From Sistotremastrum niveocremeum HHB9708 (taxonomy: Eukaryota; Basidiomycota; Agaricomycetes; Sistotremastrales; Sistotremastraceae), in assembly GCA_001630475.1 (NCBI GenBank), contig KV419395.1, positions 372,001 through 436,000 of the forward strand: a DNA stretch of 64,000 bases. Reading direction: 5' to 3'. Under the pieces are notes generated by a model. That model did no database searches. It was not told where the DNA came from and was given only the letters and a program-made list of their open reading frames with translations. Below, piece by piece: positions 13,582 to 22,187 of the stretch. Positions within the stretch are counted from its first letter, which is position 1. Every line of letters starts with the position of its first letter. The position numbers and the translations under genes are program-made.

Positions 13582-14509
13582 ATGGCAGATCTCCAGCACA
13601 TGCCTTGGTCGCAGTCGGTCGTCACCCTCACACCCGTTGACGAGGGGCTGCCAGGACAAAACTTAGGCGAAGACGACGATGACGAGACGGTCACCTTAGC
13701 GGGAGATCGTGCTATTCCGCAAACGGGCGCCGTGCCAGATCCAGCCAATCCCTCGACGTTTGTGCTTCTCCTTGAGCATGATGATCCCTCAGACACCAGG
13801 ATATATACGACTGATGGACGTACGATGTATACGGTCACGACCCGAGGACAAGGTGCAAGCGAGATGAGCCGTGTCCTGGTGACGTCTTTGAACGATCGAC
13901 TTGGACAGGTACGTGACTTTGTCAAAAGAAATTATGAAAGACTCTAATGCTTGCCTCTTTGATGACTCATAGTCTATTGGCTCGTACATCCGACCCTCTG
14001 GACGGGGCGCCGAAATGGTGACTCTGAACGGTCAGGACCCTGTCAAGAGAGCGTCTTGGTTAGCCTCTGGACGAACTTTTTCGAACAAGTATGCCATTTC
14101 GTGACTCCTCTTGCATCTCTGACCGAACATCGCCAGACTGACGTCGTTCAGACACAATGGCGTGTCGTACAAGTGGGTGACCAAAGAAGAAGATGGCGGG
14201 ATTGCACTCGAGGTAAGCAATCGACTTCTGACTTCCAGAGGCATGTTGCTAATAACCCTTTGATAGCTCCTCGAGGAGGGGATTTCAGTTCCCATTGTGC
14301 GCTTTATCGATTCCAGACGCGACTGGACCGTGCCACCACCCAGGATTGTCATCCAAAAGGCGCGGATCGAGGTTGAGAGCTCTGCTTTGCATATGCTGGA
14401 CATGTGTGTCTTCAGCATGCTGGTTAGCGAAAAGTTAAGACGGGAGAAAGTTCCGTCGTCCAAGGCGATCACGTTTCCACGGAAGGAGACGACCTTTTGG
14501 TATATTTAA
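13582..14509 (+). CDS. DUF6593-like protein A (tandem array copy 1)
   Basis: First of five tandem paralogues. Exons 13582-13908, 13973-14088, 14152-14212, 14267-14509; 248 residues; intron phases 0, 2, 0. An acidic, Pro-containing N-terminus of about 55 residues is followed by a beta-rich core: FVLLLEHDDPSDTRIY, then DGRTMYTVTT, SIGSYIRP, YKWVTKEEDGG. The family ending comes next: FIDSRRDW, then a helix containing SALHMLDMCVFSMLVSEKLR. This order resembles the basidiomycete DUF6593 family (LURP-one/tubby C-terminal-like fold), whose function is unknown. No signal peptide or membrane anchor, so probably cytoplasmic. The start is the first ATG of the frame (CACCATGG context). Family assignment rests on motif memory and is moderately sure. 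Confidence 0.8.
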
Positions 14510-14919
14510 AAAACAAAGGACTCACTGGACTCTTCCCTATGTTTTTATTACAGATAACCCCCTGATGTACATGTACTAGTACGCAACGACGCTGTTGGTT
14601 GGTTTGCAGTTGTAGCAGTGTGTTGTCGTGTTTACCGCGTGAGAAGACAGCGGTTCCTTCGGTCCCGAGAACCAGAAGTACGGATGCTGTTCTTCTCAGG
14701 CCCTGGGCCTGACTTCTCCTAACTTCCTGAACTGAGACGCCGATGTCTGTGAAGGGAACGCTAATGGTTCTGTCCCCGATATACGCGTAACACCGTTCCG
14801 ACGGCACTCACTCTGCCACTTTAGCCTCTCCTCAGGCTCATATATAAGGACAATGGACCCATCGCATCCGTTGCCACCCCTGCATCTCTCTCTTCGTACC
14901 CGCCCTCATCACCTGCCGC
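14510..14919. other. Promoter region of DUF6593 gene B
   Basis: About 410 bases between copies A and B. No coding frame is supported. It contains the TATA box of gene B at 14841 near its downstream end. Confidence 0.5.
14841..14848 (+). promoter_or_regulatory. TATA box of DUF6593 gene B
   Basis: TATATAAG lies 79 bp upstream of the ATG at 14920, followed by a pyrimidine-rich leader. Position and sequence fit a core promoter for gene B. Confidence 0.5.
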
Positions 14920-15841
14920 ATGTCGCACGCAGACTCACCACCCACCTGGAGCCCTTCATTTGAGCTCCCAGCCTACGACACCCTCCCAGACTATGGTGAC
15001 GACGAGGACACGCTCCCCCTCGCTGACCAATTCAACCCTTCTGTCAGCCACGCCTCGTTCTCAGAGCTGCCTGCGGATAGCATTTTCACTCTCACATTCA
15101 AATACGACGACCCTTCCAATACAAAATTGACAACTGTGGATGGCTACACGCTATACAGTGCATCAACTCAAATAGAAGGCGTCAAAGATACTCAAGTACT
15201 CGCGACTCACATAACAGGACGCCGTGATAAAGTACGTAAGACATCGCCCTGACTCTTGCAACGAGCCTCATTATGGACTAGGTTATCGCGTCGTACCTGC
15301 GTGGGCGAGATCCGGACGATATGCTAGTCTTGGGTGGTATGCCACCCATGAAGCGCTCATCCTGGCTCGTACCTGGACGAGGCTATTCAAAATCGTTCGT
15401 CTCCTGTTTCCAATGAGTTTTCATATGCTTATCCTCCTGCAGCGCAGGGACGTTTCATCACAATGGAAAGAGATACACATGGATGATTAAAAAAGAGGAT
15501 CATAACACCACCCTTGAGGTATGACTTTTCCGCGGCCCATCCGTCCCTCGTCCTCATTGTCTTTTGTCCCAAAGCTCTTCGCAGGCAACAACAAAATTCC
15601 AATGGCAAGATTCAAAGATTCGCGACGCGACTGGTCAATCCCTCCACCAGCCCTCGTGATTCAAAAAGCACGGCTCGAGCTGCAATCCTCAGCTCTTCAC
15701 ATGCTGGATGCTGTGGTGATCAGTCTTCTGCTGGCAGAACGACTGCGGAGATCGAAGGGACTGAAATCGAGTCGCGGTCATCTGAGTGGCCGTGAGACAA
15801 CTCTGCGGATGGAGAGAGTTGTTCGGGCAGTCTATGTGTGA
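14920..15841 (+). CDS. DUF6593-like protein B (tandem array copy 2)
   Basis: Exons 14920-15231, 15282-15394, 15443-15518, 15575-15841; 255 residues; intron phases 0, 2, 0 at the same places as copy A. N-terminal 65 residues are Pro/Asp-rich (LPDYGDDEDTLPLADQF). Core: FTLTFKYDDPSNTKL, THITGRRDK, VIASYLRGRDPDDM, then NGKRYTWMIKKED. Ending: FKDSRRDWSIPPPALVIQKA, then ALHMLDAVVISLLLAERLR. Closest in sequence to copies A and C. Function unknown. The third exon is easily missed because other frames run open across it; the splice placing AGTFHHNGK in frame is supported by alignment to the paralogues. Confidence 0.8.
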
Positions 15842-16621
15842 GAGATTTTCCAGGCTCCTGTTTCTTTGGTGTTTCACTTGGTTCGTCTGCTGCATCTATC
15901 GTGTTCTATGTATCTGTATTGTATCTTTCACCGTGTCTTCTCTGTTTCTCATCCCTAGACGTCAGCTCCTCTGGATCAGCAAGCAATGTAAATAGCTTCA
16001 TAATGCATTCTATGCATCGTAATACCACTCATTTATTCGCATCACTTTTCCGGTATTTTAAGGATCATTCACCTTTCCGTTGCTGTAGAGATTTATCCTG
16101 CTGTCGGCAGAGCCGTGCACACGACTGCGAATAAGCTGCCGGAACGTGTCGCCGCGGCGCCGAACTCACTGGCAAGCCACAAACACCATCTGATGCATCT
16201 CATCTCTATCTGGCAATCATGGCTGAGAATGGGCAACCAAAATCCCATGCTCTGCTTATTTCCGCCTTGACACTCGATCAAGAGCAGCTGCGGTAATCTG
16301 AGGGGCACTGCAATCTCCATATACAGAATAATCAGTCTCCATCCAGTGCGTCGGCAGTAAACTTCGCGATCGACTCAACATTTATTTGGGTCAATCTGGG
16401 TCTAGCTATATAAATGCTATAGGCTACTGTGGTCGCCGCGGATTTATTGGAGGATTTAGAGTCTTGTGTGTGAAACTCGTCATGATGGAGTCGGAACTTT
16501 GGCGAACAAATGTGGAGACCGTGCCCGCGCCACCTCCGTACAATTCAATCGACTACTTAATCATGGATACCCATCCAAAGCGGGCACCCGACCTTATCTC
16601 ATCACTCTCCTCTCAACGACC
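15842..16621. other. Region between DUF6593 genes B and C
   Basis: About 780 bases. It carries a TATA-like TATATAAAT at 16407-16415, some 207 bp upstream of the gene C start codon, implying a long leader or an unseen upstream exon. An ATG frame near 16484 is out of frame with the gene C exon. No gene is supported. Confidence 0.4.
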
Positions 16622-17598
16622 ATGGCCTTGTACGACCCGGACCCCCCTCCCAGCTTTCCTGGCACTCCCCTCCTCGAGTCAGGAGCATTCGATAGCTTCC
16701 GTTCTTTGGAGGCTTTACCGGCTTATGGGGATGAACTCGAAACACATCCCTTGTCTTACTCAGGCTTTTATTCGTCCCCGGACGAATCACCGTCCGAAAT
16801 TCCATCTCAATCTGCCTTCGTCCTGAAATTTACACGAGATGACCCGTATCACACACAAATCACCAATGCCGCTCGACAAGTCCTGTATACGACTTCTACA
16901 CGGCCACTTGGCGGGCCAAAGGGTACCCAGGTTCTTTCTACGCATATCACGGGACGTCGAGATCAGGTAAGACCTTTGATTTACGCGTGGAGGAAAACTA
17001 TATTTGAAAGGTCATCGCATCGTATCTCAGATCTGAAGGACGTGGATGGCGGCATAACGACACGATCGCGTTCGAATCCAAGCCTCCCAGAAGACGTTCT
17101 TCGTGGCTGTCAACAGGCTTGACTTCTAAAACGTACGCTTTCGCCCCTGTTCACTTGCTCCGCGCTCGTAGGACTAAAACAAGGTTGTAGTGCCGCAAAT
17201 TTTGTTCACGATAGAAAGTCTTATAGGTGGATGTGCAAACCGGATGGACGTAATGTGACTTTGGAGGTGCGTTCCCCCACTCCTTGAACGCCGAGATTCC
17301 AGCGCTGACTCTGGCTTCGATTCAGCTGTTCGAAGGGGATTCAAAGTCACCAATAGCTCGCTTCCTTGACTCAAGACGAGATTGGTCTGCCGACCCCTCC
17401 AATCTGGTCATCCGAAAAGCTCGAATGGAGATACAACCCTGCGCACTTCACATGCTTGACATTTGTGTGATCAGCCTGCTCATCACCGAAATCCTTCGTC
17501 GCGCGAAACATGTTACTCCCACCAAAGGGATGTTGAGCGACCGGGAGATGAACCGCAGGGTGCAAAGTGCTTTGCAATCTATTGGGAGGAGTGCATAG
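16622..17598 (+). CDS. DUF6593-like protein C (tandem array copy 3)
   Basis: Exons 16622-16966, 17011-17132, 17191-17266, 17326-17598; 271 residues, the longest copy; intron phases 0, 2, 0. The start MALYDPDPPPSF is the first ATG in frame. The N-terminus is Pro/Ser-rich, about 75 residues. Core: FVLKFTRDDPYHTQI, STHITGRRDQ, VIASYLRSEGRG, KSYRWMCKPDG. Ending: LFEGDSKSPIARFLDSRRDW, then ALHMLDICVISLLITEILRR and a basic tail. Exon 3 uses the TTGTAG acceptor at 17190, which restores the frame expected from copies A and B. Function unknown. Confidence 0.8.
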
Positions 17599-17865
17599 CA
17601 CTATAGCTCCTTGTGTTCTTGGTTGCATCGTATGCAGGAACGTGGAATGGAAAAGGACAATTGGTCAGGATGATTGGTTATGTAACATATACACGCTGTA
17701 CAATCCCTTCTCGTCAGATGCTTCTCGGTACCTCAATATATTATTATTTCTTACTTTCCACTCAGTAAATTGTTCCACGCTGGTCCGTGGCAGTGAGGTT
17801 CAGAGACCAGGCGCTGCATATAACCTGGTTTGTCATGAATACTCGAGCTCGTCTACTTGACCATC

Positions 17866-18967
17866 ATGTGTATCGCTGTGTGGACCCTTTCACATCCCTC
17901 TTACGCCCTGTATGTTATCAACCACTTCTCCTTCAGCCTATCTTGCTAACCTCCCGAAACAGGGTACTAGCAGCTAATCGGGACGAGCATCTTGATCGAC
18001 CAACTGTCCCTGCGCAATTCCATAACTTTGGCGAACACAACGAGGGATCAGAGACTGAGATCGGCCATATCCTGTCTGGAGTAGACACACGAGCTGGAGG
18101 GACATGGTTTGGAGTCAACCGATCTGGCGATGTTGGCTTGCTGTGCGTCCCTCGTCGATCTCTTTGAAGAACCATCAGCTTATTAGAACTAAAGGACAAA
18201 TATCACTGAAACTCCCAGAAAATGGACATCGTCTCGCGGACATCTTGTCTCTCGGTTTCTCTTACACTCTCATGCTAAGGACGGTTCTGAGGATCCGTTG
18301 CACGATTTCATCGACGTAGCGACCTCCAATGAAGAACGATACGCCGGGTTCAATCTTGTCTTGTTTTCTCCAACGAAATCAGACAACCCCGAAGACAGAA
18401 TCTCATACAAGGCGACTCTTCTCACCAACCATGGAGGTGGAGGGGATATAGTGTCGAAATCCCTAGATGGACTCACCGCGAACAGCTTGCCTTCTCAGAC
18501 GTTGGACAAACGGGGCACGATAAATCTGGGATGTGTGTCGAATGGTGCCGAGAACCTGTCAGAATGGCCGAAGGTTAAGAAGGCCCGACAATCTCTGCAA
18601 GAGATCCTGGATGAACCTCATCTTTCGGAAGAAGACTTGACCGAACGTCTCTTCCAACTCCTGCAGTCCGTCGCCTTTATTTCCCCACTCGCGTTCATTT
18701 CTGACATCTTTCGGTATGTTTAGATGGGAACCTCCTGTGAAACCTGAGAAGCCCCGAGATACCATTCTCGTCGCACCGATTCACATTCCACGCATTGGCT
18801 CGAATGGGCTATATGCGACTCGCCTGTCTTCTATTATTCTGATCACACATTCGGGGGACGTTTTATTCATTGAAAGAGATATCTTTATCCCTGGAGACGC
18901 TGTTGATGTCTCCTCGGTGCCAAGGGCACCCTCGAGCAGTCAACGTGTTTTCAGATTTCGGATATAG
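17866..18967 (+). CDS. TANGO2: TANGO2/NRDE family protein
   Basis: About 310 residues. Starts MCIAVWTLSHPSYAL with Cys at position 2, as in all family members, then the NRDE signature (AANRDEHLDRPT) split by the first intron (17910-17962). Further family blocks: LSGVDTRAGGTWFGVNRSGD, a spliced TNITE, FNLVLFSP, LTNHGGGG, LSNG-like GCVSNGAENLSEWPKV, and a C-terminal YATRLSSIILITHSGDVLFI followed by ER. TANGO2 proteins affect Golgi/ER organisation and lipid and heme handling; the biochemical activity is unsettled. The gene lies inside the DUF6593 array on the same strand, with its own upstream TATA-like sequence (near 17817), and shares no sequence with its neighbours. A read-through of the last intron would stop at about 18721; the downstream exon restores the C-terminus. 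Confidence 0.9.
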
Positions 18968-19754
18968 TGATCTGGGATCGATGTAGAATCGCGCTCTTAT
19001 CTTTGGGGTTCAGATTTATGTACTACCTGATTACGATTCCTGTGAGCTTCTGCTGCTATATTCGAGGACGCTCGCCCCTTGCGTGCCTTCGGCGTTTACA
19101 TCATGACGTCATCACCGGCGCCTATCGGAGTTTCGAGGCTCGACTGAGCTTTCGAGTCGTCCGCATTGTGCAAGGCGTCGGATTTTTGTCAGGTTCTATA
19201 CCCTAAAGCTTCATGGGGTAGAGCTTAAAGTCTCCGATATTTCGGAGAAATCCTGAAATTCTGCGCTGGAGAAGTCGCCGACTTGTAGCCTTGTCTCGAT
19301 CCATTTTCGGAAGCAAAACCAGGGCTAGTTTCCCGCAGACGCACTTCTCTATCTAGGGCATATTGACGCGTCGATGCTTGTCTTCTTCCCGAAGATCGAA
19401 AGTGATCGCGGAAGCCCCTGCACCTAAATTGCACCCTAGCTCTATCTGTTCCTATGCTGAGATCTTCCGAACCAGCTTCGGCTCCACCTATGACTGCATC
19501 TCTGTTTTGTTTGATTTTGTTTGAACATGTCAGTGCCCAGAAACGCGCTGTATATATGACGGTCGCAGCGTCATATTGTCGGAGTCCTGCGGTGTGGGGC
19601 ATATATGCAACGAATTTGCTTTAAAAGTGTCTTGCTTTAGACACGCGATGGCATCTTCGCCGCTCCCGAGGTTGATACCTATACGCCGGCACAAAACGCC
19701 CTGCAATATTATCATATCCTCTCGATAAATCGCATCTACTCCCGACGCAGCGCT
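18968..19754. other. Region between TANGO2 and DUF6593 gene D
   Basis: About 790 bases. TATA-like sequences occur at about 19549 and 19600 upstream of gene D. Open frames on both strands are short and show no family features. No gene seen. Confidence 0.45.
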
Positions 19755-20503
19755 ATGTCTTCAGGAAGCTCCACCCCGACCCCCTCGATTCAACCGCAGT
19801 GGGATTCCAGTGGCGAGCGATTGCGATACGCCTTTGACCGCGATGATCCATGTCGCACCGCAATTCGCGACGAATATGGTCAAATCTTCTATTCAACAAC
19901 GACACAAGAGATCGTCGGGGATCCTGACACTATACTCAACACTTTCATCAAAGATGGCCGGGGGCAGGTAGTGTTCACTAAATCTTCCTTCTCAATACTA
20001 CCTAACGTGCTTAGACCATTGCGACATATTTCAGGCCCTCAAATAAACCTTCGAAGGATTATCTTATCAACGGCTCGATGCCCCCGATCTCACGCGCGTC
20101 GTGGTTGCAATTGAGCTCTTCCTTACAAGTCACGTTCGTTCTTATGATTCAACCTCATTGAAGCAAAGCCCTCAACCGCTAGATACGTCAGATCAGCAAA
20201 GTTTCAACAAAACAAAACATCCTACACATGGTCATGGAACTCAGAAATAGATCAAGATCAATCATTTCAAGAAGTGAGTATCGCCAGCAACGTGCCTATT
20301 TACGAGTCGCTCACTTTCCGTGGGACAAGCTTCATGCAGAGGGTAACTCCTCTCCTCTGATGCGGACGCTATCATCCGGTCATGGAAGAGCTATGACAAT
20401 GCAATTAGAGATGCAAGTATTGCCGAGCGAGCTTACCGACTCGCTCATGGTCTCTCTGTTTATTCTGCTGATATTGAGAAGAGCGGACAAATCTAGCCAC
20501 TGA
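19755..20503 (+). CDS. DUF6593-like protein D (divergent, short tandem copy 4)
   Basis: Exons 19755-19967, 20015-20128, about 20202-20273, 20330-20503; 190 residues, about a quarter shorter than copies A-C. The N-terminal extension is cut to about 20 residues. The core is clear: LRYAFDRDDPCRTAI, YGQIFYSTTT, TIATYFRPSNKPS, TSYTWSWNSE. The fourth exon begins after a GTGAGT...ACAAG intron and ends LTDSLMVSLFILLILRRADK, matching the terminal helix, but the DSRRDW and ALHMLD motifs are gone. The border between exons 2 and 3 is the least certain (donor GTCACG). Apparently intact but diverged; could be a young pseudogene. Confidence 0.65.
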
Positions 20504-21272
20504 GGAACATGAGTATTTTACTTTCGTCAATAATTGTGGGACTTAGGTAGCATGAACCAAATAAATCAGGCTATGTAGCTATTCGTATATCTGGCCTGAA
20601 TTATGCCTTGTCCCGATCCAATAATCAGTTCATCTCTCTGTTGAAGTCGCCCGGACTCAGCCGGGCTCTTCCCCCGCTTGCCGCCAACGGCTGCCTTGGC
20701 CAACTCTCGCATTATTCATGGACTCAATACCAGGTCCATGGCCGATTTCAATTCAACACACACTGCACGCATAGCTCATTATTGTCTTGGCGCAGTTTCA
20801 CAATCTGCCGATGGAAGCGGTCATAGCGGTGCTTCCACCTCGAGTTTTTTTTCGGATTCAAACCAGCAAGCAATTCTCTTTCTTGGACTGCTACTGGCAT
20901 GCCCATAGGAATATCTGCATTATCAAACGACTAAAATGATGCCCAACTCCTTTCCCATGCTCATGAGACTTCGAGGCACCATGAACAGTACGACTTTCAA
21001 TTCAATTCAATCTCTATCTGGAGGCATGCCTGATCGGGAAGGACTCACGGTGTTTCGGTTCCCCTCGGGCTATGCGCAGATCTGGTGCAATCATAGGCTA
21101 CGCCCTATATGTAGGCCATCCCCAGACTGTATTCCGCGGCTGCGGTACCATATCAATCTTCACAACCCTCGAGGCCAGCACACTAGGGCATCGGCTTGCG
21201 TTTCTAGCACGCCCTCTCGCCAGATCATAGCGTGTCCAACAATTCAGAAAACCTTCTCGAACACGGCTCTGC
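20504..21272. other. Region between DUF6593 genes D and E
   Basis: About 770 bases. Several frames of 70-115 codons are open on the plus strand (20678-20908, 20936-21286), but none shows the DUF6593 motifs or another family, and codon use looks random. Treated as promoter and spacer. Confidence 0.4.
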
Positions 21273-22187
21273 ATGGAGAACGATAAATCTAGTGATCGTC
21301 CAGTCGATTCCTCTGTAGCTCAGACCCTTGAAGAGAACCGATCAGCAGAAGCACCACCTTCATATCGTGACTCTGATCGCACATTGACACTTGGCTCCGG
21401 TGCTCAACCCTATCCTCTGTCTCCCGTCACTTTCACGTTAGACCTCTTCGTCGAAGCGAAAGACGATGACATCAGCAACGCTACATTGTCTGCAAGAGAT
21501 GGCAGTGAATTGTTCAAGGTCGTGACGTATCATGCGATTATTGGAGAGGAGAGAGGCGCTGGTACGATTGTCAAAGATGCCTCCGATAGAGTGGGTGAAT
21601 CCCGTTCTGCCTTGGATCTATGGACCGAAATTCATTCTGTGCCAGGTTGTTGGATCACTGTTCAGACCTTACAATCGCAGTCGCCCTGATACAGTCTCTC
21701 TGAAAGGCGAACCATCGATGAAATGCAGGGAGTTTTTCAAAGTTGGTCGACCATTTTCGTCAAAGTCAGTCTTGATATTTTCTTGAAAATTTAAATACCG
21801 TCATAACAGTTGCTTTCCACACAGAGTGGCGTCTTTTGAATACAACGGCAGAAGTTACATATGGCGACGTGAGCGGAGATCTGGAACACTCCAGGTAAGA
21901 TACATATACCAGCGCACGCGTCCCTGCAGCTTAGCGCTTATCATCCACCAAAGCTTTCAGAAGTCGGAACCACGACAGCCCTGGCGAATTTCATCAATCC
22001 ATCTCATACTACCCGGGGATACTCGAATTTGAAGTCACTGCTAGAAATACAACCTGCTACGTTGGAATGGCTGGATATCTTGGTGTTCGGGTTTATTGTC
22101 ATGAGTATAATCAGGGAGAGGACCCCTGTATTCTCCTTCGTCTCGTTGGGGAGGGACCACAAGAAGTACCAGTTCGGAGATGATTAG
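21273..22187 (+). CDS. DUF6593-like protein E (divergent tandem copy 5)
   Basis: Exons 21273-21590, 21646-21764, 21825-21894, 21954-22187; 246 residues; intron phases 0, 2, 0, identical to A-C. N-terminus is charged (APPSYRDSDRTLTLG). Core: FTLDLFVEAKDDDISNATL, VVGSLFRPYNRSRPD, then ASFEYNGRSYIWRRERRSG. Exon 4 must use the CCAAAG acceptor at 21953, not the nearer CTTTCAG, to give LSEV and keep frame. Ending: LLEIQPATLEWLDILVFGF, then IVMSIIRER. The DSRRDW block has become a TRGYSN-like segment. Intron 1 is open in frame and would wrongly add residues if read through. Function unknown. Confidence 0.7.

Follow-up and report, generated by a model that had tools for sequence, protein, structure and literature searches.

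The window considered here, a 64,000-nucleotide stretch of Sistotremastrum niveocremeum HHB9708 DNA (positions 372001-436000 of contig C2, one of 111 contigs in an assembly of 34.7 Mb), carries five plus-strand genes of the DUF6593 family (Pfam PF20236), numbered copies 1-5 and tabulated below. First-pass splicing of the five yields complete frames of 248, 255, 263, 198 and 246 residues, respectively, and these products score 73.9, 83.6, 73.0, 36.4 and 51.6 bits against the Pfam profile. Every copy exceeds the curated cut-off of 27 bits and covers the 146-position profile from position 1 to 144-146. The original prediction, which placed five such paralogues at these starts and proposed a hidden Markov model search of their spliced products, is borne out on both counts. 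All 15 introns either shift the frame or hold an in-frame stop if retained, so the exons are unreadable without splicing. The five predicted gene models are based on frame, stop and conservation of position. Comparison across the family shifted the acceptor of intron 2 relative to the first-pass models in copies 1, 3 and 4, giving revised introns at 14089-14136, 17133-17190 and 20134-20191. Scanning the window on both strands with a spliced profile recovers the five copies at 152-202 bits; the remaining places listed (threshold 18) reach at most 18.6 bits, compared with 23.0 for the best of 16 shuffled 10-kb blocks. The rows of this profile included copies 1-5, and the scan therefore shows their uniqueness within the window, not an independent discovery. 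A conserved D/R-D-P core had been expected in all copies unless diverged: DDP is indeed present in copies 1-4, whereas copy 5 is altered to DDDIS.

The genome holds 18 DUF6593 gene models, the five of the window and 13 further ones, and 13 of the 18 lie in four local clusters. The spliced-profile finder, run on eight other stretches of the genome, returned 8 matches in a first pass and 13 after iteration. The total is a lower bound, because copies 4 and 5 went undetected in a Pfam exon search that gave 17 matches. Single-protein genome searches with copy 2, a C10 gene and copy 5 as queries revealed no loci beyond those already known. PF20236 was matched by all 15 paralogue domains scanned, and the remaining three models sit on above-cut-off matches. 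The clusters outside the window are found on contigs C52 (L013, three genes), C10 (L011, three genes) and C22 (L009, two genes), indicating that local expansion recurs within the family. No viral relative was found in viral_contigs with copy 2 as query, and a search of genome_contigs for prokaryotic relatives with a five-row alignment gave 29 pattern matches, none of them confirmed. PF20236 was matched in 0 of 199 genomes of one prokaryotic phylum, where control families likewise gave no match. The DUF6593 products have no match in NCBIfam, and no paper naming DUF6593, IPR046528 or PF20236 was found in the open-access literature, most subscription journals lying outside this search. A broader literature query likewise brought up nothing on the family, judged from titles and opening lines of abstracts.

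Introns in phases 0, 2 and 0 are common to all five window copies, one more than the four originally credited with them. This pattern is family-wide. Intron 3 (phase 0) occurs in 18 of 18 models. Intron 2 (phase 2) is missing only from C10_a (17 of 18 models), whose first intron lies in phase 1 at position 98 in the final model, while the first-pass model has one in phase 2 at position 90. This odd intron is probably a mis-splice but is counted as an exception all the same. Extra introns are present in the models of two single genes, C1 and C2far. Because the pattern is inherited throughout the family, it is no sign of recent duplication, and intron phases were ruled out as a mark of recent copying. 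Intron 1 is restricted to nine genes on three contigs (the five of the window, three on C52 and one on C47) and marks a nine-gene clade that forms a supported group in the tree (96/93). The tree, like the profile comparisons described below, starts from all 18 models, and an alignment (A2) retains 15 of them, omitting C10_a, C1 and C2far as less certain.

Within the window, the tree joins copies 2 and 3 (98/96) and, with lower support, copies 1-3 (85/86). Copies 4 and 5 sit on long branches, and the data neither establish nor reject a single clade uniting all five (approximately unbiased test, p 0.12). Repeated local duplication, as originally proposed, is thus supported by the inferred tree for copies 2 and 3 and less firmly for copies 1-3; the shared introns are an inheritance. 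Domain identity among the window copies is 19-55%. Five of the ten window pairs were measured, and all five show saturation at synonymous sites (pS, the proportion of synonymous differences, 0.77-0.85; pN, its nonsynonymous counterpart, 0.30-0.51); third codon positions are the commonest site of change in the measured pairs. This saturation indicates that the cluster is old. An old local duplication followed by divergence would fit these values, while recent tandem amplification is ruled out by the divergence and the saturated synonymous sites. The youngest pair measured lies outside the window: C52_a and C52_b differ by 0.15 nonsynonymous (dN) and 1.27 synonymous (dS) substitutions per site. 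The other pairs with finite dS are C52_a/c (dN 0.25, dS 2.11) and C22_a/b (dN 0.20, dS 2.89).

An L/PPxY (PY) motif lies upstream of the domain in seven of the nine three-intron genes. Within the window, those with the motif are copies 2, 3 and 5, the first of which has two such motifs. Elsewhere the motif reads PPAY in C52_a and C52_b and LPAY in C52_c and the C47 gene. The two genes that lack it are copy 1, with LPGQ at the equivalent place, and copy 4, with a tail of 22 residues. In 20,000 rounds of tail shuffling covering the nine genes of this clade, the motif arose in 0.40 genes on average and in four at most, and none of the rounds reached seven. In a thinned set of seven genes, five carry PY, a count reached by 0 of 20,000 shuffles. 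The background rate is three L/PPxY in 10,456 residues of other window open reading frames (ORFs) of at least 150 residues, coding or not, from which 0.14 motifs would be expected in the 473 tail residues. None occurs in the 3,507 residues of domains and C-terminal tails of the 18 products. Codons within the motif differ synonymously between paralogues. The comparison of the predicted proteins thus shows a PY motif that is positionally conserved in an otherwise poorly conserved N-terminal tail. Among the genes outside this clade, the C1 paralogue (L014) has a 91-residue N-terminal tail formed by a low-complexity, Ala-, Pro-, Met- and Ser-rich repeat.

PY motifs are ligands of WW domains, and a candidate partner is encoded in the same genome. 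The animal phospholipid scramblase 1 (PLSCR1), in excerpts of PMC12368045, binds the WW domains of NEDD4-2 through its PY motif and is a NEDD4-2 substrate, and the PY tails of fission-yeast wtf antidotes bind Rsp5/Nedd4 ligases (PMC10721834, likewise excerpted). At E 0.001, 13 WW matches are found in the S. niveocremeum genome. One gene encodes three WW domains and, after them, has two exons with matches to HECT positions 2-144 and 194-304 out of 306. The predicted product has the layout of an Rsp5/Nedd4 ligase, judged on WW and HECT only. Copies 2, 3 and 5 show two features expected of a candidate Rsp5/Nedd4 PY client, namely an N-terminal L/PPxY and a WW-HECT ligase in the genome. The motif is presumably accessible.

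The fold of the domain was compared with that of the LURP-one (LOR, PF04525) family. LOR proteins have the tubby fold. The bacterial LOR rows were drawn from two phyla. In the first, 5 of the 199 genomes searched supplied them; in the second it was 23 of 294, two of which fall below the family cut-off. Against the first five rows, an 18-row DUF6593 profile scores 24.8, a value reached by none of 100 column shuffles (maximum 18.7), and the reversed alignment gives 11.9. Against all 28 rows the score is 30.1 (P 4e-4; 0 of 100 column shuffles, maximum 17.5), and removal of two fragments, leaving 26 rows, changes it to 30.2. The sole decoy, an unrelated alpha/beta family, scores 8.8. The aligned part places DUF6593 residues 12-58 on LOR positions 34-76, and the Prob for residues 1-60 by themselves is 66 (0 of 40 shuffles). 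Against 26 LOR rows in the common register, the three-intron subset gives P 0.042 and the other nine genes P 0.02, both without subset-specific shuffles. The N-terminal third of the DUF6593 domain thus appears to match bacterial LOR weakly, near the start of both domains, and both end in a similar hydrophobic helix by eye. DUF6593 products have no Pfam match to LOR, however, and the remaining domain is not alignable. Since the match is limited to the first strands, a tubby-like reading is suggested there and not for the rest of the domain; the LURP-one/tubby check proposed in the original prediction yields support that is weak and partial. No LOR domain was matched in the genome by an exon-by-exon search at E 0.001, 15 pattern matches to LOR in viral_contigs included none that was confirmed, and a phmmer search of a LOR protein against solved structures gave no match.

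The C-terminal helix finds no support as a clear membrane anchor: across the 18 domains, the best 19-residue hydropathy is 0.79-2.01. For two of them, copy 1 and C10_a, the stretch of highest hydropathy lies away from the C-terminus. In the tubby barrel a central hydrophobic C-terminal helix is enclosed, and scramblases have been proposed to be built alike. Whether the scramblase helix is a membrane or a core helix is described as uncertain (both points from excerpts of PMC4725246).

The cluster had been read as a tandem run. It is a local cluster, broken by a TANGO2-type gene that sits between copies 3 and 4. Of ten further window ORFs compared with Pfam, three have no match, and seven match TANGO2, glutamine amidotransferase, XPG, molybdopterin oxidoreductase, RRP12, P450 and, below the family cut-off, alpha/beta hydrolase. 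No incompatibility domain was found among these ten. Directly upstream of copy 3 and out of frame with it, a plus-strand ORF at 16482-16622 begins MMESELWRTNVETVPAPPPYNSIDYL and contains PPxY-like tail sequence, with PPPY at 16530. Its possible identities include an upstream ORF, an alternative first exon and a remnant of another copy.

Table. Predicted DUF6593 genes, PY motifs and neighbouring gene in the window, with the candidate ligase gene (located on L056)
Feature	Position	Strand	Details
DUF6593 copy 1	13582-14509	+	exons 13582-13908, 13973-14088, 14137-14212, 14267-14509
DUF6593 copy 2	14920-15841	+	exons 14920-15231, 15282-15394, 15443-15518, 15575-15841
PY motif, copy 2 tail	14965-14976	+	LPAY
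Second PY motif, copy 2 tail	14983-14994	+	LPDY
DUF6593 copy 3	16622-17598	+	exons 16622-16966, 17011-17132, 17191-17266, 17326-17598
PY motif, copy 3 tail	16715-16726	+	LPAY
TANGO2-type gene between copies 3 and 4	~17866-18967	+	PF05742, E 3.6e-13 for 18193-18720; outer ends by eye
DUF6593 copy 4	19755-20503	+	exons 19755-19967, 20015-20133, 20192-20273, 20330-20503; longest branch, short tail without PY
DUF6593 copy 5	21273-22187	+	exons 21273-21590, 21646-21764, 21825-21894, 21954-22187
PY motif, copy 5 tail	21354-21365	+	PPSY
Rsp5-type three-WW/HECT ligase gene	L056 1893-4381	-	WW and HECT matches

The best explanation overall, offered tentatively and with somewhat less than even confidence, is that the five genes belong to an old clade of diversified, tubby-like proteins controlled by Rsp5. 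It builds on what is observed of the family (homology, gene structure, age, coding constraint and tail motif) and on the matching ligase in the genome. In this model, the PY tail would be docked by the WW domains of the genome's Rsp5/Nedd4-type ligase, a step for which the chances appear evenly balanced. PY-tailed DUF6593 proteins would then be clients or adaptors of the ubiquitin ligase, and ubiquitination would set their level or location. The folded domain would be a tubby/LURP-one-like beta barrel, with the C-terminal hydrophobic helix filling its core and not crossing the membrane; from the profile comparisons, such a fold is possible, its chances falling only just short of even. The barrel may meet a membrane lipid or a protein partner, which would differ among the copies. 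That docking and fold hold jointly, as a working PLSCR1-like arrangement, is unlikely. Similarly doubtful is the broadest form of the idea, in which the tubby/LURP-one/scramblase superfamily has DUF6593 as a fungal branch, with one clade controlled by Rsp5 through the PY tail, its diversified lipid- or cargo-binding barrels being a non-arrestin counterpart of the alpha-arrestins.

Known systems resemble this proposal in part. PLSCR1 likewise has PY motifs at its N-terminus and a helix at its C-terminus (PMC12368045), besides a proposed tubby-like domain (PMC4725246), as far as these excerpts go, whereas DUF6593 products have no match to Pfam PF03803 and their fold is a prediction. Working like PLSCR1 is separate from being a scramblase, and the products lie outside PF03803. 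The sole PF03803 match found in the genome by an exon-by-exon search is at C1:1020933-1021157 (L017). The wtf antidotes carry L/PPxY in a tail (excerpt of PMC10721834), as do the alpha-arrestins in the portion of the literature consulted. Unlike these, DUF6593 products have neither a Pfam arrestin match nor a multi-spanning hydrophobic part, and their client role is predicted. Relative to PF20236 itself, the PY tail and intron 1 belong to a single clade here and stand outside the Pfam definition.

Several observations weigh against Rsp5-controlled, tubby-like proteins. The PY motif was seen first and tested afterwards, in one genome and nine related genes, and tail starts were picked by hand without a search for exons further upstream. 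Copies 1 and 4 lack the motif, which is thus not needed for the basic role of the domain. The other nine paralogues also lack it; in eight of them the tail is 0-13 residues long (C10_a has no identified start), so that absence there says little, and the ninth is the C1 paralogue with its long tail. As for the fold, the reversed 28-row LOR alignment scores 17.0, whole-domain Prob against LOR is 1-35, and global alignment fails. The LOR score is reached by shuffles for residues 55-169 (1 of 40), 80-169 (2 of 40) and 100-169 (20 of 40). The three-intron subset scores 19.1 against the five LOR rows in a shifted register (LOR 50-90), and its value in the common register, given above, reaches just P 0.04. 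A profile search produced no credible relative of solved structure (two matches, E 0.51 and 1.2), and no Pfam tubby-like family was matched at E up to 10 by the five copies or 15 paralogue domains.

A rival reading is an ordinary lineage-specific expansion kept by drift and weak constraint, with PY inherited for another or no present use and a fold unrelated to tubby. Such an expansion is a serious contender, if one whose probability stays clearly below even. Four local clusters in one genome and the high divergence suit it, as do the missing PY of copies 1 and 4 and a LOR match confined to the N-terminal third. It accounts less readily for a PY motif retained, with synonymous codon changes, between paralogues saturated at synonymous sites, for a LOR register common to most subsets, and for the clear domain constraint in the three finite-dS pairs (C52_a/b, C52_a/c and C22_a/b).

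The same three pairs bear on a self/non-self recognition or killer-type system, in which the PY tail would steer the product to the vacuole as in the fission-yeast wtf antidotes. The paralogues are clustered and diversified, and the PY tails of wtf antidotes bind Rsp5/Nedd4 (PMC10721834). According to the same excerpt, wtf proteins are multi-transmembrane, in contrast to the DUF6593 domains with their best 19-residue hydropathy of 0.79-2.01. Moreover, dN is well below dS in all three pairs, each outside the window, and the ten other window ORFs scanned contain no incompatibility domain, making a killer-type system improbable. The original prediction also allowed for selection on dosage or diversification. 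Gene-dosage amplification, in which recent tandem copies raise the amount of one product, has in its favor the physical clustering of the copies on one strand. The 19-55% domain identity and the saturation of synonymous differences in the five measured window pairs render it highly improbable, while old diversification fits.

The finding of a PY motif in the tails of the three-intron clade is new here, and the case corrects the idea that common intron phases are evidence for recent duplication. A predicted ligase-docking motif, conserved in the clade, and a candidate fold give the anonymous DUF6593 family, modelled in 18 copies from one genome, a first testable idea of its role. If true, control by Rsp5 would extend the known Rsp5 clients of fungi by a non-arrestin class.

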